Origin: Rhodospirillaceae bacterium
Lineage (GTDB): Bacteria > Pseudomonadota > Alphaproteobacteria > SHVP01
NCBI GenBank assembly: GCA_002722055.1
Contig: PBKD01000006.1
Span: 1-64,000 of the forward strand
DNA length: 64,000 bases
Reading direction: 5' to 3'
Position numbers and translations under genes: made by a program. Under the pieces are notes generated by a model. The model did no database searches. It had not been told where the DNA came from and saw only the letters and a program-made list of their open reading frames with translations. Of the stretch, positions 20,208 through 36,099 are shown piece after piece; position 1 is the first letter of the stretch, and every line of letters begins with the position of its first letter.

Positions 20208-21377
20208 TTATTTATATGGATCTGCAGCATCTCTAAGACCATCACCAAAAAAATTAAGAGCTAGAACTGTAATTATTACAGGAACAACAGGAAATATTAA
20301 CCATGGATGAAGCGCTACAGCATTAATATTTTGAGCTTCATTTAATAAAACACCCCAACTTGTAATTGGTGGCCTTAGGCCTAAGCCCAAAAAAGAAAGA
20401 GCTGTTTCTCCTAGAATCATTGCTGGAATCGAGAGAGTTGCTGAAGCTATCAAGTGGCTCATAAATGATGGTAAAAGATGTCTTCCTATTACTCTTTTGG
20501 GGCTTGCACCCATTAGAACAGCTGCAGTTGCAAAGTCCTCCTCTCTTAAAGATAGTAATTTAGATCTTACTGCGCGAGCTAATCCAGTCCAGTCAATTAA
20601 TCCTAAAATAATTGTTATTCCCAAATAAATTAAAATCGGACTCCAAGTTGCAGGCAATGCAGCTGATAATGCCATCCATAGAGGTAATTCGGGAAAAGAT
20701 CTAATTATTTCTATACTTCTTTGAACCAAGCTATCAACCCAACCCCCAAAGTAACCTGCTAACCCTCCCAAAGTTATACCTAGTATGAAACTTATTGTAA
20801 TTCCGATTAGTCCAACTGTTAATGAAATTCTAGTACCATAAATTATTCTTGATAGCATATCTCTACCAAGTCGGTCTGTTCCTAAAATATATAGATAACC
20901 CTTTTTAGAGGGACAAAATAAATGAAAATTTGAATTAAACATTCCCCAAAATTTATACGTATCTCCGTTGCATAAAAATCTAATTTTATAGATTTTATTT
21001 TTGCTTATTGTGTATTCTCTCTCCAAAGTTTCAGTATTTAAAACCTTTTTATATCCATACACAAAAGGCCCAACAAATTTTCCATCGTGAAATAAATTTA
21101 TGGACTGTGGTGGGGCAAAAATATTTCTTCTATCTCTTGAGTCTAAAGCGTAAGGTGCTAAAAATTCACTTACTAAAATAGAAAAATACATAAATAAAAG
21201 TATACATCCAGAGTAAATTGCTAATTTATGTCTCAATAATTTCCACCACATCATTTTCCATTGAGATGCCATGAAAAATTTTTCTTGAGATGCTGTCATC
21301 TTTTCAACAGATAGAGGGTCGAAAGGTTTTTTATTTACATAATGTTCTATTATCTCATTATTTTCAGTATTACTCAT
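20208..21377 (-). CDS. Family-5 ABC importer, permease 2 (DppC/YejE-like)
   Basis: A 389-residue inner-membrane permease of the peptide/nickel/oligosaccharide type. It has an N-terminal helix (about 48-70), a large periplasmic loop holding LGTDRLGRDMLSRIIYG (a hallmark of DppC/OppC), then five more helices with the EAA loop around GASPKRVIGRHLLPS that docks the ATPase. The N-terminal loop is longer than in DppC and resembles YejE. It overlaps permease 1 by 4 bp (ATGA), so translation is coupled. Last gene of the long minus-strand array. Confidence 0.92.
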   Translation of the reverse strand: MSNTENNEIIEHYVNKKPFDPLSVEKMTASQEKFFMASQWKMMWWKLLRHKLAIYSGCILLFMYFSILVSEFLAPYALDSRDRRNIFAPPQSINLFHDGKFVGPFVYGYKKVLNTETLEREYTISKNKIYKIRFLCNGDTYKFWGMFNSNFHLFCPSKKGYLYILGTDRLGRDMLSRIIYGTRISLTVGLIGITISFILGITLGGLAGYFGGWVDSLVQRSIEIIRSFPELPLWMALSAALPATWSPILIYLGITIILGLIDWTGLARAVRSKLLSLREEDFATAAVLMGASPKRVIGRHLLPSFMSHLIASATLSIPAMILGETALSFLGLGLRPPITSWGVLLNEAQNINAVALHPWLIFPVVPVIITVLALNFFGDGLRDAADPYK

Positions 21378-22399
21378 TTTGCTGCACTTTCACCTAATCT
21401 TATTCTTGGATCAAGGGCTGCTAATGCTAAATCGGAGATAAACATCCCTACTACTGTTAGAAGAGCTAGTCCCATTAGAAAGGATCCAGCTAAATACTGA
21501 TCTTGTGATTGAAGAGCTTGTAATAGCATTGGGCCGGTAGTAGGAAGAGATAAAACTACTGAAACTATTGCAGCTCCTGATACAACTTGAGGTAAAAGAT
21601 TCCCTATATCTGCTATAAATGGATTTAAAGACATTCTTAATGGATATTTTACTAAAGTTTTGAAGTCATGAAGACCTTTTGCTTTAGCAGTAGTAACATA
21701 TTGTTTTTGTAGTTCGTCTAATAAATTAGCTCTTAGCCTTCTTATCATGCCGGCAGTACCTGATGTTCCAATAACAACTACTGGCACCCATAAATGCTCT
21801 AACACAGACATAAATTTATCAAATGACCATGGTTGATCTAGAAATTTTTCATCCATTAATCCGCCAATTTCAGTTCCAAACCAAACATTAGCAAAATATA
21901 GTAAAACTAAAGCTAAAAGAAAGTTAGGGGTAGCTAGCCCTAAGAAGCCAATTAGTGTGAGAGAATGATCCCCTATGCTATATTGATGAGTGGCTGAGTA
22001 AACGCCAATAGGAAAAGAAATTACCCATGTAAAAATTATTGTAGCAAAGGAAACAATTATCGATAACCATATTTTATCACCTATAACATCACTGACAGGC
22101 ATATCAAACTCAAAAGATTGACCAAAGTCTCCCTGAAGAAGACCAGAAAACCCTTCATTCCCAGGCAGAACACCTAACCAAATCCCATACTGTTGCATAA
22201 AGGGTTTATCAAGACCGTACTGTTCTCTTAAAAAAGCAATACGTTCCGCAGCAGCAGAGTCACCCTGAGATTGAAGTTCTAAAAGTTGATTTGATAAATA
22301 ATCTCCAGGGGGGAGTTGTATTATTAAAAATATAAGAAAGCTAATTACCAGTAGGGTTGGTATCATAACAAAAATTCTTTGAATTAGATAATTGAACAT
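21374..22399 (-). CDS. Family-5 ABC importer, permease 1 (DppB/YejB-like)
   Basis: A 341-residue inner-membrane permease. It begins with MFNYLIQRIFVMIPTLLVIS, the usual DppB start, followed by a periplasmic segment with REQYGLDKPFMQQYGIWL and GDFGQSF, five more helices, and an EAA loop (TTAKAKGLHDFKTLVKYPLR). Pairs with the next gene to form the channel. It lies 18 nt after the solute-binding protein gene. Confidence 0.93.
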   Translation of the reverse strand: MFNYLIQRIFVMIPTLLVISFLIFLIIQLPPGDYLSNQLLELQSQGDSAAAERIAFLREQYGLDKPFMQQYGIWLGVLPGNEGFSGLLQGDFGQSFEFDMPVSDVIGDKIWLSIIVSFATIIFTWVISFPIGVYSATHQYSIGDHSLTLIGFLGLATPNFLLALVLLYFANVWFGTEIGGLMDEKFLDQPWSFDKFMSVLEHLWVPVVVIGTSGTAGMIRRLRANLLDELQKQYVTTAKAKGLHDFKTLVKYPLRMSLNPFIADIGNLLPQVVSGAAIVSVVLSLPTTGPMLLQALQSQDQYLAGSFLMGLALLTVVGMFISDLALAALDPRIRLGESAAK

Positions 22400-22417: not shown

Positions 22418-24352
22418 TTATTCTAACCAAAATGTATCTGGCATATAGATACCAAAATGAGCGCCTGGGTCCCAATTATATATCCCATCTTTAGGAACAT
22501 TTTTTAGATTTTTTTTTACTACAATGGGTTGTTTTACGCCAGAAACAATTCCAATAGTGTAGACTTGTTCTGCGTGGATATCGAGCATATCTTGCCAAAT
22601 TCTCTTTCTTAATTTTTGATCAGATGTATTTTGCCATTTAACCAATAATTCATTAAGTAATTGAACTTCTTTTAGTTCCACTTTTTCTCCAGACAACCCT
22701 CTTGTTTCAATATATTGACCCCACTTTGGCCATTGAAACTGTTGTTGAGAGGTTACAGCTAATTCTCTTGGTTCAAAATTTCTAGTTGGAATTCCATTTT
22801 CTAGACCCGACCAGACAGCCATCATTGTTTCACCAGAAAAAATCCTATTTCTTAAAACGTCTCTTTGTGATGGTTTAGAAAATAATTTTATACCAATTTC
22901 TTCCCAGCTTTCTTTTATTAATTCTAAAACATCTGTTTCTTCTTCACTTTCGCCAGAAGTTTCAACAATTATTTCCAGTCTTTTTCCATTTTCCATTATT
23001 CTGAAGCCATCACTATCTTTATTAATTGTTCCAATTTCATCAAGTAGATCATTTGCTTTATCCGTATCATATTGTGTCCAAGAAGTTTTATATTTTTCTT
23101 TGTAAAGCTCACTTTCTTGCAAAACAGTATTATTACTCTCCGAAGCCAGGCCAAAATATAATGCTTCGTTCACTAGTTCTCTATCTATGCTTAATGAGAG
23201 AGCTCTTCTAAATCTCACATCCCTAAATAATTTTTTTAGAATCTCATTATTAACGTTTAGATTTGGGAAAAGAGCTATATGAGATCCTTTAGCTCCCTTC
23301 CAAAGATATGTTTTATACTTTGAGTCGTCTCCAAGTTTAATCTCATTCTTTTTCAAGAAAGGAAAACTTTTTAGACTTATATTTCTCGCTTGTAAATCAG
23401 ACTCACCCGCACCTGCCTTTGCCGCTATAAGTGAGGCAGAAACTTGTGAAAACTTTACTTGATTTAAATAAGGTAATTGTCTTCCATTTTGATCTACCCT
23501 GTGAAAGTATGGGTTTTTTTTAAATATATATCTTGTTGCAGGGGGTCTAGTTGAGTTGAACCATGGTTGAAGAGTAGGAAGGTCTGGGTTATCAAATTTG
23601 TATAAGTTATCCTTCTTGTTATGTATAGCTGCCCAATTTCTTTTACTCTTATTATTTTTTTTTATTTTTTCTTCAGAAGTATATTTAATATGAAATTGTT
23701 TTAGATAATGGGCTGGCCGGTATATGAATAGTGGAGAGGCGCTAGCTAACCGATTTAAAAAAGATACTTTGGGGTTTTTCCATTCATATTGAACTGTATA
23801 CTTATCAATGATTCTGAAAATTGGAGGTTCATTATTCTGTATCATATCATTTGGTGGGCCCGAAGGAGATAGTTTTTTATTATTTGCTACATCCTGCCAC
23901 CAATATCTGAAATCTTCTGAGGTAAAATCTGCGCCATCTGACCATTTATGACCTTTTCTTAAATATAAAGTAAATTTTTTATTATCTTCAATTTCAAATT
24001 TCTCAAGTATATCAGGAATTAGTTCTCTATTTATATTATACCCGACTAATCTAGAGTATCCGTATACAACCATAAGACGAATATCTTTAGCACGTCCAAT
24101 AAACATTCTGATCTCTCCTCCATTTTTCCCAGGTTCTTTGACATTAATTACTCTAGGTTTTCTTGGAAGGCGATCTTGAATAGAAGGTAAAGTATTATTC
24201 TCAACTCTCTGAATAAAGTATTCAGATTCTATATATTTTTCAGCTTGAAGTTTCATTGGTATTAGAATAATTAGAGCCACAATCATTGAATATTTAATGA
24301 AGACTCGAGATTTTAACAAATTTGAATTTTTACTTTCTTCACAGTTAAACAT
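22418..24352 (-). CDS. Family-5 extracellular solute-binding protein
   Basis: A 644-residue periplasmic binding protein. A signal peptide (SMIVALIILIPMKLQA, cleaved after LQA) is followed by the SBP_bac_5 fold; LRKGHKWSDGADFTSEDFRYWW is the family signature, and VRFRRALSLSIDRELVN is the second. At over 600 residues it is of the large YejA-like kind that binds peptides, microcin-like or oligosaccharide ligands; the ligand is unknown. I chose the ATG at 24352, which overlaps the ATPase stop by 8 bp; an ATG at 24385 would add 11 residues. Part of the ATPase-SBP-permease-permease operon. Confidence 0.9.
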   Translation of the reverse strand: MFNCEESKNSNLLKSRVFIKYSMIVALIILIPMKLQAEKYIESEYFIQRVENNTLPSIQDRLPRKPRVINVKEPGKNGGEIRMFIGRAKDIRLMVVYGYSRLVGYNINRELIPDILEKFEIEDNKKFTLYLRKGHKWSDGADFTSEDFRYWWQDVANNKKLSPSGPPNDMIQNNEPPIFRIIDKYTVQYEWKNPKVSFLNRLASASPLFIYRPAHYLKQFHIKYTSEEKIKKNNKSKRNWAAIHNKKDNLYKFDNPDLPTLQPWFNSTRPPATRYIFKKNPYFHRVDQNGRQLPYLNQVKFSQVSASLIAAKAGAGESDLQARNISLKSFPFLKKNEIKLGDDSKYKTYLWKGAKGSHIALFPNLNVNNEILKKLFRDVRFRRALSLSIDRELVNEALYFGLASESNNTVLQESELYKEKYKTSWTQYDTDKANDLLDEIGTINKDSDGFRIMENGKRLEIIVETSGESEEETDVLELIKESWEEIGIKLFSKPSQRDVLRNRIFSGETMMAVWSGLENGIPTRNFEPRELAVTSQQQFQWPKWGQYIETRGLSGEKVELKEVQLLNELLVKWQNTSDQKLRKRIWQDMLDIHAEQVYTIGIVSGVKQPIVVKKNLKNVPKDGIYNWDPGAHFGIYMPDTFWLE

Positions 24353-26198
24353 TTGATAATACCCAGTGATTATTTCCGATTTCATTCATTTTAGGTGAAA
24401 ATTTTTCATTTATTATATATTTTTCTGGCCACTTAGATGGGTCTGAAGCTTTTCCATCCATAAGATTTTGAAAATTTAATTTTTTATTTGGATTGGGATC
24501 AGGTACCGCTGCTAAGAGTGCTTTTGTATATGGGTGTTGAGCATTATTGAAAAAATCATATTTTGGCGCTTTTTCTACAATCTTGCCAGCGCACATGACG
24601 ATTATATAATCAGAAATATAATCAATTACAGCTAAATTATGAGAAATAAATAGATAAGTTAATCCTAAGTCTTTTTTTAAATCTTTAAGTAAATTAAGGA
24701 CTTGGGCTTGAATAGAAACATCTAAAGCTGATACAGGCTCGTCACAAATTAGAAACTCTGGTTCTAAAGCTAGTGCTCTAGCAATACCAATTCTTTGTCT
24801 TTGTCCTCCAGAAAAGCTATGTGGATACCTTCTTAATGAAGTTATTGGAAGTCCTACAATATCAATTAGTGATTTTACTTTATTGAATCTATCTTCTTCT
24901 GATCCTAAATTATGTATAATCAATGGCTCATTGATAATATCAAAAACTGTCATTCTTGGATTCAAAGAGCTAAATGGATCTTGGAAAATATATTGAGAAT
25001 TTTTTCTAAAATATAAGATTTCTGATCTTTTTTTTATACTTAATACATCTATCGTATTTTTACTCGTATTTAAGATTATTTGTCCTTTGTCTGGTTTAAG
25101 TGCCCCCATTATAATCTTACTTGTTGTAGTTTTTCCACAACCTGACTCACCCACTAAACCAACACACTCTCCTCTAGGCACATCAAAACTAACATTATCA
25201 ATCGCTTTAATCGTGTTATGCGAAGAATTACTCAAAAATGATTTTTTTCTTGTTATAAATGTTTTGCTCAAGTTTTTAACTTTAAGCACAACTTTATTAT
25301 CTGTTTTTATATTAATTTCCGATCCCAGTGTGGAAATTTTAGAATTGATTTCCCTAATTGGTATTAACCTCTCATTTGAGGACATACCAAATCTAGGGAC
25401 TGCCTTCAATAAAGATTTTAGATAGGGGTGTTGAGCGTTATGAAAAATATCTTTAAGACTTCCGTATTCCATAATTTCTCCATGGTACATAACAATTATT
25501 TCGTCAGCCATGTTTGCTACTACACCTAGATCGTGAGTTATCATAAGTATAGCCATCTTCATTTTGGATTGAAGGTCTTTCATGAGTTTTAAAATCTGGG
25601 CCTGAACGGTTACATCTAGAGCTGTGGTAGGTTCGTCTGCGATTAAAAGGGCTGGTCTACAAATCATAGCCATAGCAATCATAGCCCTTTGTCTTAGACC
25701 GCCAGATAATTCAAAAGGATAAATATCAATTGATTTTGAGGGGCTTGGAAAACCTACTAAATTTAGTATTTCAGCAGTGGCCTCTCTTGCCTCATTATTT
25801 CCTACTTTGTTGTGTAAAAGAAAGCCTTCAGCAATTTGATTTCCAATTGTATGCAAAGGAGATAATGAAGTCATTGGTTCCTGAAAAATTATTGATATTC
25901 CAGAACCTCTAAGCTTTCTCATTTCAAGACTGTTATTTTTTATAGATGTGATTATTGTTTTTTTAAATGAATGTTTAGGATCATAAAATGTTATTTGTCC
26001 TTTTGATACTGTGCCAGTTTTTGGTAAAATTCCCATAATAGATTGAGAAATTACTGATTTTCCAGATCCAGACTCACCCACTATAGCAACAGTTTTGCCC
26101 ATTTGAATCGAAAACGAAACTCCTTTTACTGCTTTGATTAAACCCTCAGGAGCATTAAATTCAACATGAAGGTTGTTTACTGAAAGAATATTATCCAT
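24345..26198 (-). CDS. Double ABC ATPase of the family-5 importer (YejF-like)
   Basis: A 617-residue protein with two complete ATP-binding cassettes in one chain, as in YejF or GsiA. First cassette: Walker A GESGSGKS at 41-48, signature SGGLRQR, Walker B LLIADEPT. Second: Walker A GESGCGKTT around 348-356, signature SGGQRQR, Walker B FLICDEPVSALD. Each is followed by the oligopeptide-transporter C-terminal motif (HPYLKSLLKAVP, HPYTKALLAAVPDP). It powers the two permeases encoded downstream. It begins 17 nt after the PH-like membrane protein gene, so the importer seems to share a transcript with the glycan genes. Confidence 0.95.
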   Translation of the reverse strand: MDNILSVNNLHVEFNAPEGLIKAVKGVSFSIQMGKTVAIVGESGSGKSVISQSIMGILPKTGTVSKGQITFYDPKHSFKKTIITSIKNNSLEMRKLRGSGISIIFQEPMTSLSPLHTIGNQIAEGFLLHNKVGNNEAREATAEILNLVGFPSPSKSIDIYPFELSGGLRQRAMIAMAMICRPALLIADEPTTALDVTVQAQILKLMKDLQSKMKMAILMITHDLGVVANMADEIIVMYHGEIMEYGSLKDIFHNAQHPYLKSLLKAVPRFGMSSNERLIPIREINSKISTLGSEINIKTDNKVVLKVKNLSKTFITRKKSFLSNSSHNTIKAIDNVSFDVPRGECVGLVGESGCGKTTTSKIIMGALKPDKGQIILNTSKNTIDVLSIKKRSEILYFRKNSQYIFQDPFSSLNPRMTVFDIINEPLIIHNLGSEEDRFNKVKSLIDIVGLPITSLRRYPHSFSGGQRQRIGIARALALEPEFLICDEPVSALDVSIQAQVLNLLKDLKKDLGLTYLFISHNLAVIDYISDYIIVMCAGKIVEKAPKYDFFNNAQHPYTKALLAAVPDPNPNKKLNFQNLMDGKASDPSKWPEKYIINEKFSPKMNEIGNNHWVLSNV

Positions 26199-26215: not shown

Positions 26216-26746
26216 TTATTTATCCTTATTATACAAATTAATACCCATAGCTTTAAAGTTTTTTTCTGTATAATAATTAAATAAATAATTATATGAGTAA
26301 GTTTTTGAGGCTATTTCCTCCAGTATTTTGTCAAAACCAGGTATTGAGGAGTGAATTGCTATCTTTTTCTTATTATTAAATAACAATAAAACCATCCAAC
26401 CCTTTTCTTTATCCCTTCTGGTAGAATAATAGTGTAATTTTACTTCAGAAATATCTTTCCATTTTATAATATTTTTATTTATTAGGTTAGTTCTAATAAC
26501 CTCTTTATCAGTGAAGGTAATTTTTGAAAGACTCTTTATAATGAGAAAAGCAAAATATATTGAAAATAATAAAATAAATAAAATAGAAAGAATAAGTATG
26601 GTTTTTGTTATATTCATGATCAGTGAAACATATATTAAGATTGATAACCATAAGACAGTTTGAAATATATTCCATAAATTTGATTGAAGTTTATACTTAA
26701 ATTCTTTTTCTATTTTTATTGTATTATCTTTTTTATTGAGTGCCAT
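26216..26746 (-). CDS. Two-helix membrane protein with bacterial PH-like domain
   Basis: A 176-residue protein that I do not recognise at family level. Two hydrophobic helices lie at about 28-44 and 48-71. They are followed by a beta-rich segment ITFTDKEVIRTNLINKNIIKWKDISEVKLHYY then WMVLLLFNNKKKIAIHSSIPGFDKILEEI, the pattern of a bPH (DUF304-type) domain: strands, a KWKDI turn and a C-terminal helix. It overlaps the deacetylase gene by 31 bp. Its place between glycan and importer genes suggests an envelope role; no function can be given. Confidence 0.7.
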   Translation of the reverse strand: MALNKKDNTIKIEKEFKYKLQSNLWNIFQTVLWLSILIYVSLIMNITKTILILSILFILLFSIYFAFLIIKSLSKITFTDKEVIRTNLINKNIIKWKDISEVKLHYYSTRRDKEKGWMVLLLFNNKKKIAIHSSIPGFDKILEEIASKTYSYNYLFNYYTEKNFKAMGINLYNKDK

Positions 26747-27480
26747 TGAGATCCAGACTTTATTGTAATTCTTATTAACTTATCTAAAAATAAAAACGAA
26801 TCCTCATTCATTACATTATGATGTGTTAGTATACCAATAGGCTCTCTGATCCTGCTATTATTCTCTCTTCTAACTTTAAGTTCAAATATTAATTGATCAA
26901 CTAAATCTTTTTCTCCAGCAAATACTTTATTTTTCTTCCAATCAATTATATCAATATTAGTATTGATTATTTTTGAATACTCTATATTAGTTGAGTGTCC
27001 ACATAAGTTTTTATTGAAAGAAGATACTGCTGTTATCCCTATACATTTAATATGAGGTAAAAGCAGGTGACTCATTCGGTTCCAGGGCGGCACAAAAATT
27101 GGTTGGTATGCTGTCTCAAAATATTCGGAAACTAATTTGGCTCCGTGATGTATATCTTCAAGCATATGTTCTATATTTCTGCTTTCCCCAAATTCAGATT
27201 TTTTCTGTCCATTTGGCTCATAGTTTTTATGTTTAAATCCATGCTGTAAAATCGAAATTAAATCTATAGAATTTAAAATTTTTACTAAGCTTTTTTCTAT
27301 TAAAAATGGAATAACTGCTAGTGAAATAGGAATATTAAATTCTTTTGTGAAACTAATTAGTCTTGTTAATTTTTGCGTTTCTTTGTATGCATCATCATCT
27401 CTTATCCAAAATATTGGATAGATAGATTGGTCGCTCCATTTGGATAATTCTTTTTCTAATTTGCACCAAACTTCATTCAT
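26716..27480 (-). CDS. Polysaccharide deacetylase-like protein
   Basis: A 254-residue NodB-fold (carbohydrate esterase 4-like) protein. WIRDDDAY at 25-32 carries the metal/catalytic aspartates, H80 and H84 in QHGFKH fit the His-x3-His metal site, and FVPPWNR matches the RxPW-like motif 3. The C-terminal LTHHN is the motif 5 region. No signal peptide is present, so it probably acts in the cytoplasm on a sugar precursor or lipid-linked glycan, unlike secreted chitin or peptidoglycan deacetylases. It overlaps the glycosyltransferase by 4 bp (ATGA). Confidence 0.82.
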   Translation of the reverse strand: MNEVWCKLEKELSKWSDQSIYPIFWIRDDDAYKETQKLTRLISFTKEFNIPISLAVIPFLIEKSLVKILNSIDLISILQHGFKHKNYEPNGQKKSEFGESRNIEHMLEDIHHGAKLVSEYFETAYQPIFVPPWNRMSHLLLPHIKCIGITAVSSFNKNLCGHSTNIEYSKIINTNIDIIDWKKNKVFAGEKDLVDQLIFELKVRRENNSRIREPIGILTHHNVMNEDSFLFLDKLIRITIKSGSQWHSIKKIIQ

Positions 27481-28634
27481 TTTATAATATCAGCTATAAA
27501 TTTGTATGTATTTTCTGAACCATTAAATTCTGGTATGCTAAGTTTTAATGGATCTATTTTTATCAACTGTGGTATGTAATTTTTAAGCTTAGATGGGCTT
27601 AGTTCATTTTCTTGTATGATTTTAATATAATTTAAATAGCTATAGTGTCCGGCTCGAATAATTTGATCGCTCTTAATATCCTCCGAAAATGGAATAATGA
27701 TTGATTTTACCCTACCAGATATAATCTCCATAAGAGTATTATAACCTCCCTGGTTAATTGAAATTAAGCAATTTTGAAGGTGTCTATGAAAATTTTTACT
27801 AAATTTTTCAAATACTATATTTCCACCTAATTCTTTTGCTAGTTTGTAGTATTCTTTTTTATTAAAATTACTTTCGTTTATTCCAATTATAATCCTCCAT
27901 TTAAAGTCCATGTTGGGAAAAAGTGATGAAGCTTTAATTGAATTTATAATTATTTTTTTACCAACTGCACCTCCTCCTGCAGAAACTAAAATTTCCTTAT
28001 TATTTTTAAAACCTACATTTATTTTTTTTTGTTTTTCACATACATAACCAGTATAAAATATTTTTTTTATATTTGATTTTTCTAATTTTAGTTTTTGCCC
28101 GATTGAATATACGCTTTCTTCTCCATGAACAAGTATATAGTTATAGTATTTAGAGAGTATAAAATTCAGCTGATCTATCTTTTCTTTTTTTAAGTCACTA
28201 ATTATTATATCTCTTATAGAAGAAATAATAACAGTTTTACCTTTTGTGGCTTGCTTTAAAAGGGGTAAAATTTCGAACTTCATTTGATTTCGACCAAATG
28301 GAAACATTTCGGTGATTAGTATTTCAGGTCTAATTTTATTAAATATTTTTAAGAGTAATTCTTGCCTTTTCTTTTTCAATGCAGCATCAATTTTATTCCC
28401 TTTTTCATCTAATAAGTTTTTAAAATCAGCATTTTCTGATTTTATTGGAGGAAGTTGGACAAATGTCGCGTTGCCAAAATCTATACTAGATATTTTACTT
28501 CCACCCGAAATAACTGTTATATCTAGACCTTTTTTCGATATTAAATTTACAATTATGGAAACCCTTTTTAAATGGCCTATTCCAAGAAGGTGCTGAACAT
28601 AAAATATTATTTTTTTATTCATACTATTTATCAA
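27477..28634 (-). CDS. Glycosyltransferase, GT28/MurG-like (paralogue A)
   Basis: A 385-residue GT-B protein. The N-terminus (FYVQHLLGIGHLKR) contains the GxGHxxR nucleotide-sugar glycosyltransferase start; VSAGGGAVGKK begins the C-terminal Rossmann domain, and SINQGGYNTLMEIISG is the GT28 donor-binding region. It is a diverged paralogue of the gene at 31585-32832. ATG at 28634 or a second ATG four codons later (MNKK) could be the start. Coupled by 4-bp overlaps to both neighbours. Donor and acceptor are unknown. Confidence 0.83.
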   Translation of the reverse strand: MINSMNKKIIFYVQHLLGIGHLKRVSIIVNLISKKGLDITVISGGSKISSIDFGNATFVQLPPIKSENADFKNLLDEKGNKIDAALKKKRQELLLKIFNKIRPEILITEMFPFGRNQMKFEILPLLKQATKGKTVIISSIRDIIISDLKKEKIDQLNFILSKYYNYILVHGEESVYSIGQKLKLEKSNIKKIFYTGYVCEKQKKINVGFKNNKEILVSAGGGAVGKKIIINSIKASSLFPNMDFKWRIIIGINESNFNKKEYYKLAKELGGNIVFEKFSKNFHRHLQNCLISINQGGYNTLMEIISGRVKSIIIPFSEDIKSDQIIRAGHYSYLNYIKIIQENELSPSKLKNYIPQLIKIDPLKLSIPEFNGSENTYKFIADIIK

Positions 28635-29206
28635 ATCATGGAAATTGTAGATGAATAAGTTAATTTATTTATACTGCTAAGATTAAAACTATAAGCATTC
28701 CCACTTTCAATCCTTATTGGAATTTTTCCTATCATTTCCCAGTCTGTAGCTAGAGCAATCGCAGCTCTTATTACACCTTTATGTGTTACACAAACATGAT
28801 TTTTCCCAAATTTTTCAATTGTTTTTAACCATTTTAAGACTCTATTCTGAACCTCCCTCGGTGTTTCACCATTTGTTGGTTTCATATCCAAACCTAAATT
28901 TTCATTTACAATCATCTTTTCACCAAATTCTTTTCGTAAATCAGATAATTTTTTTCCTTCCCAATTACCCCAATTCATTTCAATTAGTGCTGCCTCAATT
29001 TTTGGTTTCTCAGAAAATATTATCTCTGCTGTTTTGGTTGCTCTTTGAAGTGGACTTGACCATAGAGTATAATTTTGAAGATTGATATTCCATTTTTTCG
29101 CATTTTCTTCCCCCTGTCTGCAAATAGGAATATCAGAATGTCCTTGAAGAAGACCAGACAAATTCCATTCTGTCTCCGCATGTCTTATAAATATTATATT
29201 AGTCAT
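28631..29206 (-). CDS. Histidine phosphatase family protein (phosphoglycerate mutase-like)
   Basis: A 191-residue branch-1 histidine phosphatase. The phospho-histidine is H9 in IRHAETEW; R55 (QRATKTA), E76 (EMNWGNWEG) and H142 (THKGVIRA) complete the site. Members dephosphorylate sugars, nucleotides or lipids; given its four-base overlaps with two glycosyltransferase genes, a sugar phosphate (or phospho-glycan) substrate is the best inference. No signal peptide. Confidence 0.9.
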   Translation of the reverse strand: MTNIIFIRHAETEWNLSGLLQGHSDIPICRQGEENAKKWNINLQNYTLWSSPLQRATKTAEIIFSEKPKIEAALIEMNWGNWEGKKLSDLRKEFGEKMIVNENLGLDMKPTNGETPREVQNRVLKWLKTIEKFGKNHVCVTHKGVIRAAIALATDWEMIGKIPIRIESGNAYSFNLSSINKLTYSSTISMI

Positions 29207-30351
29207 TTATCTTTTATATAATTTTCTGAGACTGTATGTAATATTTTGTTTAGTTTTTCAGATGTTATTTTTAAAGATCTATTTGAGTGAATGAAATTTT
29301 CAGCATCAATGCTCATATTATCTCTAAGCATAACATCAGTAAGAAGTTTTTCGACAGCTTTACTAAAATAAATGGGGTTTTTATTTGTAATATCTACTAA
29401 AAATCCACTTTTATTATGTTCTATTATTTCTGAGACACCACCAGACTTTCCTGCAATAATGGGCAGCCCACAAGCTTGTGCTTCTAGGTATGATAAACCA
29501 AAAGCCTCATTTACACCTGGCCATACAAATATATCGCAGCAGTTATACAAGTCAGCTAATTCTGATTGTCCCATTTCTCCAAGAAAAAAAACTTTTTCAT
29601 ACAAAGCGTCTTTTAATATTTTCTCTACATGAGTTTTTTCAGGCCCGATACCAACAATCAAATGAAAAAATTTTTGACTAACTAATTTCATTGATTTTGA
29701 AAGTATTTCATAAGATTCAAGTTTTGAATTATCATTTCTCATCATGGCTACTGTTAAGATCCATGGATCATATTTTGGAATATTAAACTTTGTAGCAAAT
29801 TGTTTTTTTAAAGAAATTTTATTTAAATTTTTTTTGTAAAATATAGATGTATCTGGAAAAGGAGGTAAAATATAATTTTGTTTTTTATTTTCAAAAATTT
29901 TATCTATCTCAATCATATCTCTTTTGGTAAAATTAATAATTGCGTTTGCTTTAGATATTGATTTAAGAGCACTTTTACTTCCATTCATCCATTCTCCAGT
30001 TTCTCTTTTTTTTGCATAGGATGCCTCCAAAATTATATATGGAATTGAAAGTTTTTCACTTATAATTGGGCCAATATAATCAGGAGCTTTATAGTAGCTA
30101 TGGTATGTAAACCAGAGATTAGGTTTTCCGAACTCAATTTTATTTAAGATTCTGTCTATTTCATCTGCAGAGTTATTGTAAATATTTTTTTGTTCAGTGG
30201 ACTTACTTGCATAACTTCTAAAGCGAGAGGGGATAATAACTTCATGACCTAGGTTGTTTAATAATTTAATTATACTTCTTGCAATGTTTCTATCGCCTGA
30301 AACTATATTATGATCAAACGGTTTTAGTGGAGAATAAAATGCTATTTTCAT
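29203..30351 (-). CDS. Glycosyltransferase family 4
   Basis: A 382-residue retaining GT-B enzyme. The C-terminal donor-binding domain shows GPEKTHVEKIL, VFFLGEMGQSELADLYNCCDIFVWPG and the EX7E motif in EAFGLSYLEAQACGLPIIA. The N-terminal acceptor domain starts at once with MKIAFYSPLKPFDHNIVSGDR, the usual form without signal peptide. It overlaps the histidine phosphatase gene by 4 bp and lies 9 nt after the next glycosyltransferase. Sugar specificity cannot be told. Confidence 0.92.
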   Translation of the reverse strand: MKIAFYSPLKPFDHNIVSGDRNIARSIIKLLNNLGHEVIIPSRFRSYASKSTEQKNIYNNSADEIDRILNKIEFGKPNLWFTYHSYYKAPDYIGPIISEKLSIPYIILEASYAKKRETGEWMNGSKSALKSISKANAIINFTKRDMIEIDKIFENKKQNYILPPFPDTSIFYKKNLNKISLKKQFATKFNIPKYDPWILTVAMMRNDNSKLESYEILSKSMKLVSQKFFHLIVGIGPEKTHVEKILKDALYEKVFFLGEMGQSELADLYNCCDIFVWPGVNEAFGLSYLEAQACGLPIIAGKSGGVSEIIEHNKSGFLVDITNKNPIYFSKAVEKLLTDVMLRDNMSIDAENFIHSNRSLKITSEKLNKILHTVSENYIKDK

Positions 30352-30360
30352 CAGTAATAT

Positions 30361-31575
30361 TTAATTTAAAAAAAGTTTTGAAATTTTTTCTATACCGTTA
30401 TGCATAGAAAATTTTTCTTCGATTATTTTTTGGCCCTCTTTCGCTAATTTTTTTCTTTTAATAGGGTTATTTATGAGTTCAAGTATAGCTTTTTTAAGTT
30501 CTTGTACAGATTCGCTTTTTACTAAAATTCCAGAAATATTATTTATAATTAACTCTTCGATACCAGGTAGAGAGGTGCTTATACAAGCTAGGCCCTGACT
30601 TTGGGCTTCCATGAGAACATTAGGAATTCCATCCCTGTCCCCTGTATCAGTAACCTTACTAGCTAATACAAATATATCAGACTCTCTATAAAAATTAAGA
30701 ACTCTATCTTGTGTTAATGTTCCATTCCAATTAATTTTATTGCTTATCCCAAGTTTATCTGAAAGTTTTTTTAATTTTTTATTTAGCGGTCCATCACCTA
30801 TATGTTCTAATTTCCAGTTCAATTCTTTTGGTAATAGTGATAAAGAATTTAATAAAATATCGAAGCCTTTTTTTTCAACCAATCTTCCAACAGATAGTAT
30901 AATTACAGAGTAATCAATTTTTAAATCTTTATGATTTTTTTCTATAATATTTGATGTAGGAAAACGATCAAAGTCAATTCCATGATATACTAAATTTATA
31001 TTTGAGCTTGGACAAATGTCCGAGAGATGTTTAAAGTTTTGTTTTGTACATGTCGTTACCCACAATGCCTCGTCAAGTTTTTTTTTCTTTTCCCATTCAT
31101 TTATTGTCCATATATCTTTAGCATGTGCAGAAATAGAATATGGTTTCTCTAAAATTTTAGAGGCATAGTATGTTACTGATGTTGGTGTATGGAGAAAATG
31201 GGCATGAAGGTGAGTTATTGTTTTAGGCATTTCTTTAGAAAGAACTATTGCTTGAGCAAACCTTCTAATTCTATTAATCGAGAAATCTTTTTTTAGATCA
31301 TTTATCCATTCTTTCTTAGATAACTTATAACCCGGAAGTTTTTTTATTTTTAACCATGATAAAAAAATTTTCAGTGGAGAGAGATATATATACTCAGGTA
31401 GATAATAGACCTTTGCCTTAATTTTTTTATTTAATTGATGTGTAAATTTTTCTCTCGGTCTTCTGAGAGAAAAAATATCTATTTTAAAACCTTTTTGTTC
31501 TAATGCTAAAATTTCTTGAGCAATAAAAGTTTCTGATATTCTTGGATAACCTTTTAAAATAAATGCTATATGCAT
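30361..31575 (-). CDS. Glycosyltransferase family 4 (WcaL-like)
   Basis: A 404-residue GT4 enzyme resembling the colanic-acid transferase WcaL: MHIAFILKGYPRISETFI at the N-terminus, THLHAHFLHTPTSVTYYASK in the acceptor domain, SVGRLVEKKGFDIL and GIPNVLMEAQSQGLACIST in the donor domain. Cytosolic or membrane-associated. It lies 9 nt from both neighbours in the array. Probably adds one sugar to a lipid-linked exopolysaccharide or surface-glycan repeat unit. Confidence 0.92.
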   Translation of the reverse strand: MHIAFILKGYPRISETFIAQEILALEQKGFKIDIFSLRRPREKFTHQLNKKIKAKVYYLPEYIYLSPLKIFLSWLKIKKLPGYKLSKKEWINDLKKDFSINRIRRFAQAIVLSKEMPKTITHLHAHFLHTPTSVTYYASKILEKPYSISAHAKDIWTINEWEKKKKLDEALWVTTCTKQNFKHLSDICPSSNINLVYHGIDFDRFPTSNIIEKNHKDLKIDYSVIILSVGRLVEKKGFDILLNSLSLLPKELNWKLEHIGDGPLNKKLKKLSDKLGISNKINWNGTLTQDRVLNFYRESDIFVLASKVTDTGDRDGIPNVLMEAQSQGLACISTSLPGIEELIINNISGILVKSESVQELKKAILELINNPIKRKKLAKEGQKIIEEKFSMHNGIEKISKLFLN

Positions 31576-31584
31576 ATTTAAAAT

Positions 31585-32832
31585 TTAGGCTCTCTTTAAG
31601 GTTGTGATATTTTTTTCAGTTCTGATATTTAATTTATTATTTACTCTAGGTTCAATAAGCCTATTTACATTCTCTAATCCTTCTAAAAGCCCAGGAACAA
31701 TAATTTCAGATGGTTTTTTTTGTTTTGGCATTTCTTTTAATGCCTGAGCCATTAATTGATAATCAAGTTTACCGTTATCTTCAAGCATTTTGACTAAGCC
31801 TAAGTCTTGAGCTCTAGAAGCCCTAATGTATTGTTCAAATCTAGGAGATGTTCTCGGTATTATTATTGCTTTTTTATCAAGAGATAAGATCTCACAAAAA
31901 GTATTATAACCACCCATGGCAACAATTCCGACCGCATTAGATTCCAGATCTTCCATTTGTACATCAAAAGTTATTGCTTGAACACGCTTGCTTTTTTTAC
32001 ATCTTTTTTTGAACTCTTCTTGAAGTTCAGGTTGCATAAATGGACCAAGCACAAATAAAGCAGAGTAAGGTAAAAGAGGATCATTTTCATAAGCTCTAAG
32101 TACCCACTCAATTAGCTCTTCTCCATCCCCGCCTCCACCAGTTGTTACCAATAAATATGGTTCTTTTTTTGAAAAAAATCTCTCAGTAGAGCTTGAAATA
32201 TTTTTTACTGAACGTCGTAAATAACCAGTATAAGTTATCTTATCTATAACTTTTTTTGGCAAAGGAAGGTCATTAAGAGGTTCATAAATTTGTGGAAGAC
32301 CATAAATCCAGATTTCATCATATAGTTTTCTTAAGACTGGAAGCACATTTTTTCTTTTCCATTCAGGCTCGAGTGCAGCTGATGAGTCTAGGATGTCTCT
32401 TAGCCCAAGAACAAGATGTTTTCCTCTTTCCTTAAGCATTTTAAGTGTGTCAAGAACTTCGCCTCTTAAACCTGTCGGTTCCTTATCCACTATAAAAACA
32501 TCTGGATCAAATATATCTGCGGTATGTTTAATAATAGAAGATCTCATTGAAATTGTTTTATCTATGTCTATAGCTAAATTTAACGTAGTATATTCACCAT
32601 TTTTTAGTTTAATTACCCCAGGAATTCTAACGAAATCCACTCTTGCACTAAAGTCAAAACTTCCAATAATTGGTGAGCCAGATAGAATAAGAACTGATAA
32701 ATCTTCATATTTTTCTACTAGAGAATTAGCTATTGCTCTGCAACGTCTTAAATGGCCAAGGCCCATAGTATCATGGCTATAAATAAGTACCCTTGAGCCA
32801 GAGTGGTTAGATTTAACTAGATTATTATCCAT
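31585..32832 (-). CDS. Glycosyltransferase, GT28/MurG-like (paralogue B)
   Basis: A 415-residue GT-B protein, first gene of the minus-strand array. YSHDTMGLGHLRR at 18-30 holds the GxGHxRR motif; LLVTTGGGGDGEEL begins the donor domain; AMGGYNTFCEILSLDKKAIIIPR is the GT28 donor loop. It shares its layout and several motifs with the gene at 27477-28634, so the array carries an internal gene pair. It is transcribed away from the ABC/CNBD operon, with 133 bp between start codons. Confidence 0.83.
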   Translation of the reverse strand: MDNNLVKSNHSGSRVLIYSHDTMGLGHLRRCRAIANSLVEKYEDLSVLILSGSPIIGSFDFSARVDFVRIPGVIKLKNGEYTTLNLAIDIDKTISMRSSIIKHTADIFDPDVFIVDKEPTGLRGEVLDTLKMLKERGKHLVLGLRDILDSSAALEPEWKRKNVLPVLRKLYDEIWIYGLPQIYEPLNDLPLPKKVIDKITYTGYLRRSVKNISSSTERFFSKKEPYLLVTTGGGGDGEELIEWVLRAYENDPLLPYSALFVLGPFMQPELQEEFKKRCKKSKRVQAITFDVQMEDLESNAVGIVAMGGYNTFCEILSLDKKAIIIPRTSPRFEQYIRASRAQDLGLVKMLEDNGKLDYQLMAQALKEMPKQKKPSEIIVPGLLEGLENVNRLIEPRVNNKLNIRTEKNITTLKRA

Positions 32833-32965: not shown

Positions 32966-35638
32966 ATGGAAAAAAGCATATTTAAGTATATTCTTAGGTT
33001 TAGTAGTAGACAGCAAATAATGTTGACTTTAATGGCTGTGCTTTCTTTTCCTGTTCTTTACATTTTTTATGAATTACCTAAACAAATAATAAATGGTGCT
33101 ATTCAAGGTGATCCAGGGACATTTCCTCAAAAAGCAGAATTATTTGGTATAAATTTTGGCTTTTCTGTCGGCCATATCCAATGGTTAATAATTTTATGTG
33201 TTTTATTTTTAGTTTTAGTGATTATCAACCAAGCATTTAAATATGTCATAAATGTTTATAAAGGCCTTACTGGTGAGAGGATGCTTAGGAGATTAAGATA
33301 TGATCTTTACAGCAGGGTTTTGAGATTTCCAAAAGGAACTTTTAAAAATATGTCTCAAGGGGAGATAATACCAATGATTACTGCTGAGGTGGAGCCCCTT
33401 GGTGGTTTTATTGGAGATGCATTTGCTCAGCCAATTTTTCAAGGAGGTCAACTTTTGGTCATTCTTGGCTTTTTATTTGCCCAAAACCCTTTTATGGCTG
33501 CTGCTGCTGTAGCACTTTATCCTATCCAGCTTTACCTAATTCCTAAATTACAAATGAGAGTTAACCTATTAGGAAAAGAACGAGTCAGAAGAGTCAGGAC
33601 CTTGTCTGATAGAATAGGAGAAACTGTTCAAGGTGTTGAAGAAGTACATGTTCATGACACCTCAAGGAGAGAAAGAGCAGAATTTTCATATCAATTAGGT
33701 GGTATTTTTCAAGTAAGATATAAGATTTATAGACAAAAGTTTTTTATAAAATTTGTAAATAATTTTATTCAACAATTAGGTCCATTTTTCTTTTATTCAA
33801 TTGGAGGGTATTTAGTAATTAAGGGCAGTCTTGAAGTTGGAACATTAATGGCTGCTATCGCTGCTCATAAAGATTTAGCGTCACCATGGAAAGAGCTTTT
33901 AGGCTATTATCAAAAACAAGCAGACTCAAAAATAAAATATGATCAAGTTATTTCTCAGTTTGAGCCTGTAGATATGATTGATGAATCTGCTCAAACAGAA
34001 GAACCTAAAGATAATAACACATTATCCGGAGAGCTATCACTAACAAATGTTATTCTAAACGATGATCAAGATACTCCTATTGTTGATGGCGCAAATATAA
34101 AATTTTCATTAAATGAGTCTGTAGCGCTTGTCGGAGCTCCTGGGAGTGGACGAGAGGATTTAGCAATGCTACTTGCCCGTGTTATACAACCGTCTTCTGG
34201 TTCAATAAATTTAGCAGGAAATGATATAGCAAATGCCCCAGAGTCTCTTACTGGAAGACGTATGTCTTATGTTGGTTCAGGAGGATACGTTTTTTCGTCT
34301 TCATTAGCTGATAACTTATATTATGGATTAAGGCATAAACAAATAAGTGAAAATCCAGACCAAGAAAAAGCAAGAGAATTTCAATCAACAATTACAACCT
34401 CAGAAGCTTCTGGAAATTCTACTGATGATCCAAATGCAATCTGGACAGATTATACAGCTGCTGGAGCCTCCGATGATGACTCTCTTGTTGAGCAAGCTTT
34501 AAGAGTTTTAGAAATAGCTGATCTAACAGATGACGTTTATCAATTGGGTCTTAGAGGAACTATAAACCCGGAATCAAAAAAACAAACAGCAGATCTTGTT
34601 TTAGAAGCTAGAAACAAGTTTCTTGAAAAAATATCTAATGAAAAAGATTTAGCCAGTCTTGTAGAGTCATTCGATATCAAGGCATATAATACTAATGCAA
34701 CGGTAGGAGAAAATTTAATTTTTGGTAACCCTACTAGTGATGAATTTGATATGAATCATCTAGGAAATCATGAATACGTAATTAAAGTTCTTGATAAAGC
34801 GGGTTTAAAAGCAAAAATGCTTCATACCGGCTATCAAGTAGCCGCAACAATGGTTGAGTTATTTGCCGACTTACCTCCAGATCATGAATTTTTTCAGCAA
34901 TTTAGCTTTATTTCTTCTGAAGAACTCCCAGACTTTCAAGCAATTCTTGGTAGAGTTAGTAAGGATCATTTAGATCAGCTTAAAGAAGATGAGGCAGCAA
35001 AGTTAGTTGGTCTTCCTTTCCTTCTTGTCCCTGCCAGACATAGACTGGGTATTGTTACTGAAGATTTCCAGAGAGATATTCTTGCTGCAAGAAAAATATT
35101 TGCTGACGAACTTCCTGATAGATTAAAGAAAGATATTGAGTTTTATAACTCAAGTAAATATATAAAAGGGGCAACGATTCAAGATAATATTTTATTTGGA
35201 AAAATAGCTTATGGTGAAGCGGAGGCGTCTGACAGAGTTGGCAAGGTTTTAGCTGAGGTAATTGCTGAAATAGGTTTGAGGAAGGCAATAGTAAGTGTAG
35301 GGTTAGACTTTAATGTTGGCATTTCAGGCTCAAGATTAACTCTTGCTCAAAGACAAAAATTAATATTAGCAAGATCTATTATAAAAAAACCCGATGTACT
35401 TATAGTTTCTGATGGTTTATCTGCTATTGAGACTAATGTAGTTGAAGATATAATGAAAAAGCTAGTCAATGAAATGAGTGATAGATGTTTAATCTGGGTT
35501 CTTCCTTCAATTTCGCAAGCATCTTTCTTTAATAAAATAATTGCTATGAAAAAAGGAAAAATAATAAAGTCTGGTAGTTATGAAGAACTTAATTCTGGTG
35601 ATGGTATAGCAAAACTAATTGAAGATAAGAATACATAA
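32966..35638 (+). CDS. Unusual ABC half-transporter with degenerate, expanded nucleotide-binding domain
   Basis: An 890-residue protein; usual half-exporters have about 600. Residues about 15-330 are an ABC exporter membrane domain (helices near 19-36, 73-90, 155-190, 270-290). The ATP-binding domain then departs from the norm: Walker A is GAPGSGRED at 390-398 with R396 instead of lysine; the Q-loop reads YVGSGGYVFS without glutamine; the signature is SRLTLAQRQ at 789-797; Walker B is VLIVSDGLSA (811-820), lacking the D-E pair; the H-loop position is L846/P847. Nearly 400 residues separate Walker A from the signature (about 100-130 normally), and this insert contains three NLxxG-type segments. 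ATP hydrolysis is doubtful. It is followed after 11 nt by a cyclic-nucleotide-binding protein. It probably moves, or senses, a glycan or lipid made by the divergent genes. Confidence 0.85.
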   Translation: MEKSIFKYILRFSSRQQIMLTLMAVLSFPVLYIFYELPKQIINGAIQGDPGTFPQKAELFGINFGFSVGHIQWLIILCVLFLVLVIINQAFKYVINVYKGLTGERMLRRLRYDLYSRVLRFPKGTFKNMSQGEIIPMITAEVEPLGGFIGDAFAQPIFQGGQLLVILGFLFAQNPFMAAAAVALYPIQLYLIPKLQMRVNLLGKERVRRVRTLSDRIGETVQGVEEVHVHDTSRRERAEFSYQLGGIFQVRYKIYRQKFFIKFVNNFIQQLGPFFFYSIGGYLVIKGSLEVGTLMAAIAAHKDLASPWKELLGYYQKQADSKIKYDQVISQFEPVDMIDESAQTEEPKDNNTLSGELSLTNVILNDDQDTPIVDGANIKFSLNESVALVGAPGSGREDLAMLLARVIQPSSGSINLAGNDIANAPESLTGRRMSYVGSGGYVFSSSLADNLYYGLRHKQISENPDQEKAREFQSTITTSEASGNSTDDPNAIWTDYTAAGASDDDSLVEQALRVLEIADLTDDVYQLGLRGTINPESKKQTADLVLEARNKFLEKISNEKDLASLVESFDIKAYNTNATVGENLIFGNPTSDEFDMNHLGNHEYVIKVLDKAGLKAKMLHTGYQVAATMVELFADLPPDHEFFQQFSFISSEELPDFQAILGRVSKDHLDQLKEDEAAKLVGLPFLLVPARHRLGIVTEDFQRDILAARKIFADELPDRLKKDIEFYNSSKYIKGATIQDNILFGKIAYGEAEASDRVGKVLAEVIAEIGLRKAIVSVGLDFNVGISGSRLTLAQRQKLILARSIIKKPDVLIVSDGLSAIETNVVEDIMKKLVNEMSDRCLIWVLPSISQASFFNKIIAMKKGKIIKSGSYEELNSGDGIAKLIEDKNT

Positions 35639-35649
35639 GGAGATTTTTT

Positions 35650-36099
35650 GTGAGTCTTAATGATGAAGTTGAATTACTTAGACAAGTTCCTATATTTGCA
35701 AATATAGAACCAGCAAAGCTAAAATTATTGGCTTTCACTAGCGAAAGACTAACTTTTCGAAAGGGCCTTGATTTATGTGTTCAGGGTGATCCTGGTGATG
35801 CGGCTTTCATAATCATCGAAGGAGAAGCAGACATCATAATTAAAATGGATAACGGCGAATCGAAAACTGTAAATAAAATAGGTAAACATCAGATTGTTGG
35901 TGAAATAGCTATTTTGTGTGATGTTCCTAGAACAGCTACTGTTAGAGCCTCCTCAGATGTAATTGTATTAAGAATCTCAAAGGATTTATTTTTTAGACTT
36001 GTAGGAGAGTTTCCTCAAATGGCAGTTCAAATTCTAAGGGAGTTAGCAGCTAGGCTTGAAAATACTACAACTCAATTAGCAAAAGCACTTGGTAAGTAG
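35650..36099 (+). CDS. Stand-alone cyclic-nucleotide-binding domain protein
   Basis: A 149-residue protein that is almost only a CNBD. The phosphate-binding cassette is intact: G84-E85 in VGEIAIL and R94 in PRTATVRA, so cAMP or cGMP binding is likely. There is a C-terminal helix (about 118-145) but no helix-turn-helix, so it is not a CRP-type DNA-binding regulator. The start is GTG with AGGAG 7 nt upstream, which overlaps the end of the ABC gene region by design. Pairing with the ABC protein suggests that it acts as its ligand-responsive subunit or regulator (inference). Confidence 0.9.
   Translation: MSLNDEVELLRQVPIFANIEPAKLKLLAFTSERLTFRKGLDLCVQGDPGDAAFIIIEGEADIIIKMDNGESKTVNKIGKHQIVGEIAILCDVPRTATVRASSDVIVLRISKDLFFRLVGEFPQMAVQILRELAARLENTTTQLAKALGK

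Follow-up and report, generated by a model that had tools for sequence, protein, structure and literature searches.

A degenerate ABC-exporter-fold protein and its conserved cyclic-nucleotide-binding partner in a surface-polysaccharide cluster of alphaproteobacteria

The type IV ABC exporters TM287/288 and TmrAB are heterodimers with one degenerate site, and in ordinary exporters the Q-loop is the element that couples the nucleotide-binding domain (NBD) to the membrane domain. SUR and CFTR are ABC exporters repurposed as a regulator or as a channel under regulatory control; both are eukaryotic and still bind ATP, and to our knowledge neither has a stand-alone cyclic-nucleotide-binding domain (CNBD) partner. 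SbmA has an ABC-type transmembrane domain (TMD), needs only the proton gradient to work and is a probable descendant of the TMD of an ABC transporter (PMC13316013). In Sinorhizobium meliloti, the PPP (phazolicin-protecting polysaccharide) cluster smb21252-smb21271 directs a surface polysaccharide that guards against the peptide antibiotic phazolicin; smb21252 and smb21265 mutants were hypersensitive to phazolicin, cyaA insertions were depleted in the screen, and the protective role has been published solely for S. meliloti (PMC10128002).

We analyzed a window of 64,000 nucleotides from a Rhodospirillaceae bacterium (GCA_002722055.1, contig PBKD01000006.1), in which an ABC-exporter-fold protein of 890 aa (32966..35638, + strand, ATG start; identified by ORF, domain search, AF2 and VIA-align) is followed after 11 nt by a stand-alone CNBD protein of 149 aa (35650..36099, +, GTG start; ORF, PF00027 and PDB match). 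Both ORFs are intact, and a glycosyltransferase operon that begins at 32832 runs away from them in the opposite direction. The minus-strand genes comprise a GT28-type glycosyltransferase next to the ABC gene (31585..32832; 57/79 loci), two GT4 glycosyltransferases, a (30361..31575; 62/79) and b (29203..30351; 57/79), the latter orthologous to the gene at the smb21252 position, a histidine phosphatase family protein (28631..29206; 53/79), a second GT28-type glycosyltransferase (27477..28634; 60/79) and a DUF2334-like, deacetylase-like protein scoring under the Pfam cut-off (26716..27480; homologues in 49/79). An oligopeptide-type ABC importer follows, with a double ATPase (24345..26198; 52/79), a family 5 solute-binding protein (22418..24385) and two OppB/OppC-type permeases (20208-21377 and 21374-22399, spanning 20208..22399). 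Neighbor counts refer to the loci with at least 6.5 kb of upstream sequence. No second ABC_membrane gene was present in the glycan cluster of the window, and no other polysaccharide exporter was recognized among the cluster genes examined.

This glycosyltransferase cluster is the orthologue of the S. meliloti PPP cluster. Both GT28 genes (GT28a, GT28b), both GT4 genes (GT4a, GT4b), DUF2334, the Opp-type importer (ATPase and solute-binding protein), the ABC gene and the CNBD gene were all found in a single locus at 822-845 kb of pSymB, where the gene numbers of the latter two were assigned by counting. The original prediction had linked the pair to the divergent glycan genes, and the pair does go with them, but the cluster itself was already known in its PPP form (PMC10128002). 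The ABC and CNBD genes are not discussed in the available portion of that text, and a search of the text of openly licensed papers retrieved no description of the pair, in line with its having been put forward as undescribed. The S. meliloti cluster contains a cyclase gene (SMb21257). In strain 1021, on which the phazolicin study was done, a poly-C tract disrupts the reading frame of the ABC gene; the PPP phenotype in that strain may therefore not need an intact ABC protein. R. johnstonii 3841 and S. meliloti 2011 are examples of strains whose ABC frame is unbroken. The gene pRL110056, required for root colonization (PMC11103875), could belong to the corresponding cluster of R. johnstonii.

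The ABC protein has the TMD and NBD folds of type IV exporters (TM287/288, MsbA, Sav1866, TmrAB) on one chain, with the TMD at residues 1-345 (PF00664, E 5.9e-23) and a degenerate NBD core at 351-456 and 719-886 (PF00005, E 9e-12). The AF2 model had a pLDDT of 89.8 and a pTM of 0.86, and VIA-align superimposed it on the ComA NBD over 238 residues at 1.9 Å and on full type IV exporters over approximately 440 residues at 3-5 Å (Z approximately 29-30.5). In contrast to these clear matches, Foldseek with the whole model gave low TM-scores, probably owing to domain orientation. The NBD region is approximately 540 residues long (351-886) because it harbors a 260-aa insertion (residues 457-718; 34334..35119, +), a feature absent from the original prediction. 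Unlike type IV exporters, the protein carries this insertion together with two extra Q-loop-like elements: copy 2 within the insertion (NATVGENLIFG, 577-587) and copy 3 at residues 719-779 (TIQDNILFGK; 35120..35302, +). HHalign matched copy 2 to copy 3 with a probability of 97.7 (E 2.2e-12), vs. 0.2-0.4 % for control slices outside the copies. N583 in copy 2 and N741 and G745 in copy 3 were invariant in all 166 homologues.

All scored NBD motif positions of the window protein are degenerate, which sets it apart from type IV exporters: none of the eight canonical ATPase residues scored is present, in agreement with the motif losses listed in the original prediction. Walker A (GAPGSGRE, residues 390-397; 34133..34156, +) has R396 for Lys and E397 for Ser/Thr; the Q-loop position holds S438 instead of Gln (34277..34279, +); LTLAQRQ (791-797, with LTLAQ at 791-795; 35336..35356, +) stands at the position of LSGGQRQ; the Walker B region VLIVSD (811-816; 35396..35413, +) has S815 for Asp and D816 for the catalytic Glu; and P847 of L846-P847 occupies the H-loop position (35504..35506, +). 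Of five same-genome ABC paralogues, four showed in a pattern search a canonical Walker A together with one or more of the other motifs in canonical form, and reading of the fifth, where no pattern matched, showed GASASGKT and a DE pair. The degeneracy of the window protein therefore cannot be put down to sequencing errors or sequence composition.

Across the 166 homologues, the Walker A Lys position was K in 85 and R in 55, and the following Ser/Thr was retained in 19 and replaced in 147 (acidic in 122). The Q-loop Gln was found in 36, Gly at signature position 794 in 19, Walker B Asp815 in 28, Glu816 in 82 and the H-loop His in 40. The number of canonical residues per homologue had a median of approximately 3/8 and a maximum of 6/8, and none of the 166 had all eight, ruling out both an oddity of the window alone and a canonical family with a single odd member. 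Motif loss is family-wide yet mosaic, with the window protein at an extreme. Judged from its sequence, the window protein likely lacks ATPase activity; because other members keep up to six residues, pseudo-ATPase status for the family is something we infer, not a proven property. Given the frequencies of Lys and Glu, and two members (L022 and L057) that retain Lys, Asp, Glu and His together, some members may hydrolyze ATP.

The CNBD protein (PF00027, E 3.8e-20) had as its best PDB match the PKA type I-alpha regulatory subunit (E 6e-23) and carries the fold and the cassette Glu and Arg of PKA-R/CRP-like CNBDs. Its phosphate-binding cassette, GEIAILCDVPRTATV (residues 84-98; 35899..35943, +), was strongly conserved among 145 CNBDs (G84 in 144, E85 in 141, R94 and A96 in all), and the residue right after R94 was Thr in 130/145, which is not decisive for cAMP vs. 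cGMP. The protein stops after its C-terminal helix, bearing out the predicted intact cassette and missing output domain; no DNA-binding domain follows, so the label 'Crp/Fnr regulator' in some Sinorhizobium records, implying a transcription factor, was rejected. Proteins of TIGR03896 (cyc_nuc_ocin) and a CNBD-HlyD protein in the window's own genome (L215) resemble this arrangement in that a CNBD is encoded beside an ABC exporter. The window CNBD scored 36.9 bits against a TIGR03896 cut-off of 161 and falls outside that family, and the C39-type exporter adjoining the CNBD-HlyD protein has a normal Walker A and DE pair, unlike the window ABC protein.

The ABC family occurred in 97/289 sampled genomes of its class and was rarer outside it. 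The CNBD gene was adjacent to the ABC gene in 139 of 161 testable loci and fused in frame to its C-terminus in a further 14, that is, adjacent or fused in 153. Genomes with the CNBD numbered 93/97 with the ABC gene vs. 7/192 without it (odds ratio approximately 600, Fisher p 1e-61). Pairing is thus well shown, a check on co-occurrence having been proposed beforehand; chance neighborhood was ruled out, and the obligate CNBD partner is a further difference from type IV exporters. In the AF2 model of one fused protein (L133; pLDDT 80.8, pTM 0.67) the linker before the CNBD was of low confidence. A class III cyclase gene was an immediate same-strand neighbor in 6 of 120 loci (L059, L060, L061, L113, L127, L142), lay within approximately 1.5 kb in five more, and was part of the cluster in R. 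johnstonii and S. meliloti; the examined stretch of most loci contained none. The 2.16-Mb genome of the window encodes 11 class III cyclases.

A motif-poor ABC protein and a CNBD in a sugar-coat cluster suggest a transporter or scaffold in which cAMP/cGMP takes the place of ATP as the switch. We consider it somewhat probable, a little beyond an even chance, that the ABC-fold protein is a pseudo-ATPase receiving cAMP/cGMP control through the CNBD and serving surface-polysaccharide production. The two proteins would form a conserved membrane module, the larger part being a full type IV (B-family) half-exporter fold whose NBD has lost ATP binding and hydrolysis residues and gained extra Q-loop copies, the smaller a PKA-like cyclic-nucleotide receptor. 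Because the CNBD is the C-terminal domain of the ABC protein in 14 loci, it most likely docks on the pseudo-NBD, and unfused members would do the same. Class III cyclases would supply cAMP or cGMP, and the bound CNBD, rather than ATP, would set the conformation of the ABC dimer, which would then open, close or assemble a step of PPP-type polysaccharide making or export. The cyclic nucleotide as ligand, the gating and the direction of control are what we infer here; the adjacent cyclase genes and the cyaA phenotype in the PPP screen (PMC10128002) are consistent with cAMP/cGMP gating.

A former exporter under relaxed constraint, its function fading, would also leave mosaic motif decay, and some S. 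meliloti records do carry frame-disrupted ABC alleles. Against this stand dN/dS values relative to two congeners of 0.034/0.060 for the ABC gene and 0.030/0.023 for the CNBD gene, which demonstrate strong purifying selection on both and, at 0.02-0.06, rule out a decaying pseudogene, as had been proposed from the intact ORF. With full-length conservation over approximately 100 sampled genomes, invariant residues, and a CNBD partner kept even when unlinked (G087, G200), we regard such a leftover as very improbable. That ATP still drives the protein in exporting or flipping a lipid-linked glycan, with the CNBD as a mere modulator, appears unlikely. ATP would then be bound by R/K and acidic residues outside the canonical positions, or a canonical half-transporter encoded elsewhere would serve as partner; the intact fold, a Walker A K or R in 140/166, Glu in 82/166, canonical half-exporters in the same genome and the lack of another recognized exporter among the examined cluster genes speak for it. 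The replaced Walker A Ser/Thr, the scarcity of the Walker B Asp, the mostly lost A-loop aromatic, the complete motif loss in the window protein and a cluster without a second ABC_membrane gene speak against it.

Two narrower forms of the preferred cyclic-nucleotide-controlled module were also weighed. Transport on an ion gradient as in SbmA/BacA (SLiPT), or channel function, gated by the CNBD, is rather doubtful as a specific form. The precedent of an ABC-type TMD working without ATP (PMC13316013) supports it, as does the TMD being the most constrained part of the protein (dN/dS 0.012-0.041, with the NBD low as well) and rich in invariant charged residues; SbmA-like proteins, however, belong to a different TMD family and have no NBD, whereas a large conserved NBD fold spans residues 351-886 here. 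Alternatively, the ABC part might transport nothing and act as a membrane scaffold for the glycosyltransferases, its assembly regulated by the CNBD. The strong conservation of the ENLLFG/DNILFG motifs and the insertion, and glycosyltransferase neighbors in most loci, agree with a scaffold, but the pair persists where no window-type glycosyltransferases were detected (e.g., L059, L060, L065, L075), and we judge this form improbable.

If the cyclic-nucleotide-controlled module is real, an ABC exporter can leave ATP behind and pass under second-messenger control. It is possible, though on the doubtful side, that cyclic-nucleotide-controlled, ATP-independent ABC-fold transporters or channels are widespread, with a PKA-type receptor replacing ATP as the switch and controlling a protective surface polysaccharide. 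For the PPP cluster, two genes that the available text of its description leaves undiscussed are named here, with relevance to antimicrobial-peptide resistance. Some rhizobia and marine alphaproteobacteria hold numerous class III cyclases, and in these groups the module would constitute a direct, non-transcriptional cAMP/cGMP route to surface polysaccharide.

Both open reading frames of the original prediction were found intact on the forward strand, with one encoding an 890-aa ABC-exporter-fold protein (32966–35638) and, 11 nt after it, one encoding a 149-aa cyclic-nucleotide-binding domain (CNBD) protein (35650–36099); a glycosyltransferase operon is divergent from the pair. Pfam ABC_membrane matched the ABC protein at residues 62–298 and ABC_tran at 374–477 (first half only), and cNMP_binding matched the CNBD protein, whose closest solved structure is the PKA RI-alpha regulatory subunit. 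No NCBIfam equivalog passed its cut-off for either protein. A 192-aa protein without Pfam match is encoded at 37011–37589 and also lies near the pair in close relatives (L009–L011, L042).

The ABC–CNBD pairing is certain. The position of the CNBD gene could be judged at 161 loci with sufficient sequence: directly 3′ of the ABC gene on the same strand in 139, joined in frame to the end of the ABC reading frame as a C-terminal fusion in 14 (e.g., Thalassospira L163 and MarineAlpha3 L120), elsewhere within the locus sequence in 3, and not seen in 5. In two genomes (G087, G200), a close CNBD homologue and the ABC gene were on separate contigs. The co-occurrence also held by genome: close CNBD homologues were present in 93 of 97 ABC-positive vs. 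7 of 192 ABC-negative genomes (Fisher p 1e-61; the test assumes independence, which related genomes violate). The cyclic nucleotide (cNMP) cassette was conserved at Arg94 (145/145), Glu85 (141/145), and Gly84 (144/145). Family members L198–L200 (genomes G625, G622, and G267) had open frames of 1092–1133 aa, for which the listed match spanned only approximately the first half, with that of G267 in two blocks, a hint that these members have diverged or gained further insertions; L198 was scored as a CNBD fusion. The window's own genome carries a second ABC/CNBD arrangement (contig C3, L215:2824–6767), in which a C39-type exporter with a normal Walker A and DE pair is followed, with a 4-nt overlap, by an HlyD-type membrane fusion protein with an N-terminal cyclic-nucleotide-binding domain.

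The motif losses named for the window protein were all correct: R396/E397 at Walker A, S438 for the Q-loop Gln, LTLAQ for the signature, S815-D816 at Walker B/catalytic Glu, and L846-P847 at the H-loop. Across 166 aligned homologues, the Walker A Lys position held K in 85 sequences and R in another 55. The next residue, the Ser/Thr that binds Mg2+ in normal ATPases, was retained in only 19 and was acidic in 122. Retention was 28/166 for the Walker B Asp, 82/166 for the catalytic Glu, 36/166 for the Q-loop Gln, 19/166 for the signature Gly794, and 40/166 for the H-loop His, while N583, N741, G745, and E104 were invariant. None of the 166 homologues had all eight canonical residues (maximum six; window protein none). 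A pattern search found a canonical Walker A in four of five same-genome half-exporter paralogues tried, and the fifth (L002) read as GASASGKT with a DE pair. Loss is therefore a family trait, but its pattern is mosaic, so that some members may have ATPase activity; judged from its sequence, the window protein is likely a pseudo-ATPase.

The AlphaFold2 model (70 sequences; pLDDT 89.8, pTM 0.86) superposed at residues 351–886 on the ComA NBD (238/239 residues, 1.9 Å), and approximately 440 residues superposed on full exporters including TM287/288, MsbA, and Sav1866 (VIA-align), indicating that the protein, as modelled, keeps the whole exporter fold. An insertion of approximately 260 residues separates the first Q-loop region from the signature helix. 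Residues 561–622 are repeated at 719–779 (profile–profile HHalign probability 97.7, E 2.2e-12; control TMD slices 0.2–0.4%), and the first Q-loop region has only a 22-column element in common with the two copies (probability 67.5); thus, the NBD holds three Q-loop/ENxxFG versions, of which the two extra copies are better conserved than every catalytic motif.

Against two congeneric orthologues, dN/dS was 0.034 and 0.060 for the ABC gene (NBD core 0.061 and 0.067; TMD 0.012 and 0.041) and 0.030 and 0.023 for the CNBD gene, values that are approximate because dS was high. These ratios nevertheless ruled out neutral decay of both genes, bearing out the view that the ABC gene is not a decaying pseudogene. 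Full-length ABC homologues occurred in 97 of 289 genomes drawn evenly from the same class (86 of the 235 of good quality), in named isolates such as Azospirillum, Tistrella, Nisaea, Sneathiella, Kiloniella, and Thalassospira, and on Rhizobium and Sinorhizobium replicons. A few records, Marinobacterium zhoushanense among them, carried Gamma- or Betaproteobacteria labels. When 398 genomes drawn from across the phylum were searched with a strict threshold, all 27 positives fell in the same class, and the family is therefore rare outside it.

The window's 2.16-Mb genome encodes 11 class III adenylate/guanylate cyclases, vs. six CNBD matches. Of 120 loci, 6 had a class III cyclase gene immediately beside the pair and on its strand, and 5 more had one within approximately 1.5 kb; R. 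johnstonii and S. meliloti each have one inside the same cluster. Because the scanned stretches had an overall cyclase density only modestly above this genome's own, the supply argument rests on direct adjacency rather than counts. Near the pair at L155 (7763–9586), a class III cyclase carries a 2Fe-2S ferredoxin-type domain, suggesting a possible redox input to the cNMP signal there.

The divergent upstream genes encode two GT28 and two GT4 glycosyltransferases, a histidine phosphatase, a DUF2334-like protein, and a complete Opp-type importer; these six non-importer genes and the importer ATPase were each present in 49–62 of the 79 loci that extended far enough upstream. Orthologues lie on S. 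meliloti 1021 pSymB at ~822–845 kb. Counting genes from exoF3 (SMb21245), positioned according to PMC12542648, the GT4b orthologue is SMb21252, and smb21265 is a cluster glycosyltransferase, most likely GT28. The count agrees with SMb21257, named a truncated adenylate cyclase in the same paper and matching the cyclase found in the cluster, and with SMb21272, a LacI gene in PMC11387232 that matches the LacI ORF following the FkbM gene. The cluster is reported to be required for the phazolicin-protecting polysaccharide (PPP), an uncharacterised surface polysaccharide; the phazolicin MIC was eight-fold lower for smb21252 and smb21265 mutants, and the screen showed depletion of cyaA insertions (PMC10128002). 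Seven of nine PPP genes were up during Myxococcus attack (PMC10315480). The accessible portions of the literature on this cluster held no mention of the pair. The module is real and conserved and seems not to have been described before, and the cluster around it has been described in part.

The near-obligatory pairing, the fusions, the conserved cNMP cassette, the family-wide motif loss, the intact exporter fold, and the cluster orthology are established; cNMP gating of the ABC protein is the leading proposed mechanism. The CNBD protein would dock on the pseudo-NBD and, together with bound cAMP or cGMP, take the place of ATP as the input setting the conformation of the ABC dimer, which would thereby control glycan synthesis or export. 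Under cNMP gating, the ABC part may transport, as a channel or driven by ions like SbmA (PMC13316013), or serve as a scaffold only.

The S. meliloti 1021 reference shows a frame disruption of the ABC gene at a poly-C tract of 8 C (L208:30096–30180, pSymB). In the other records compared (L205, L211–L214), the frame was open only with 7 C, as in the three records that were read, Rm41, SM11, and R28; the 2011 record matched the 7-C allele exactly, unlike the closely related 1021, and several S. meliloti records had 6 C. This variable tract is possibly a contingency (phase-variable) locus, or else reflects homopolymer errors in some records. If 1021 truly is without the ABC protein, PPP-dependent phenotypes in this strain do not need it.
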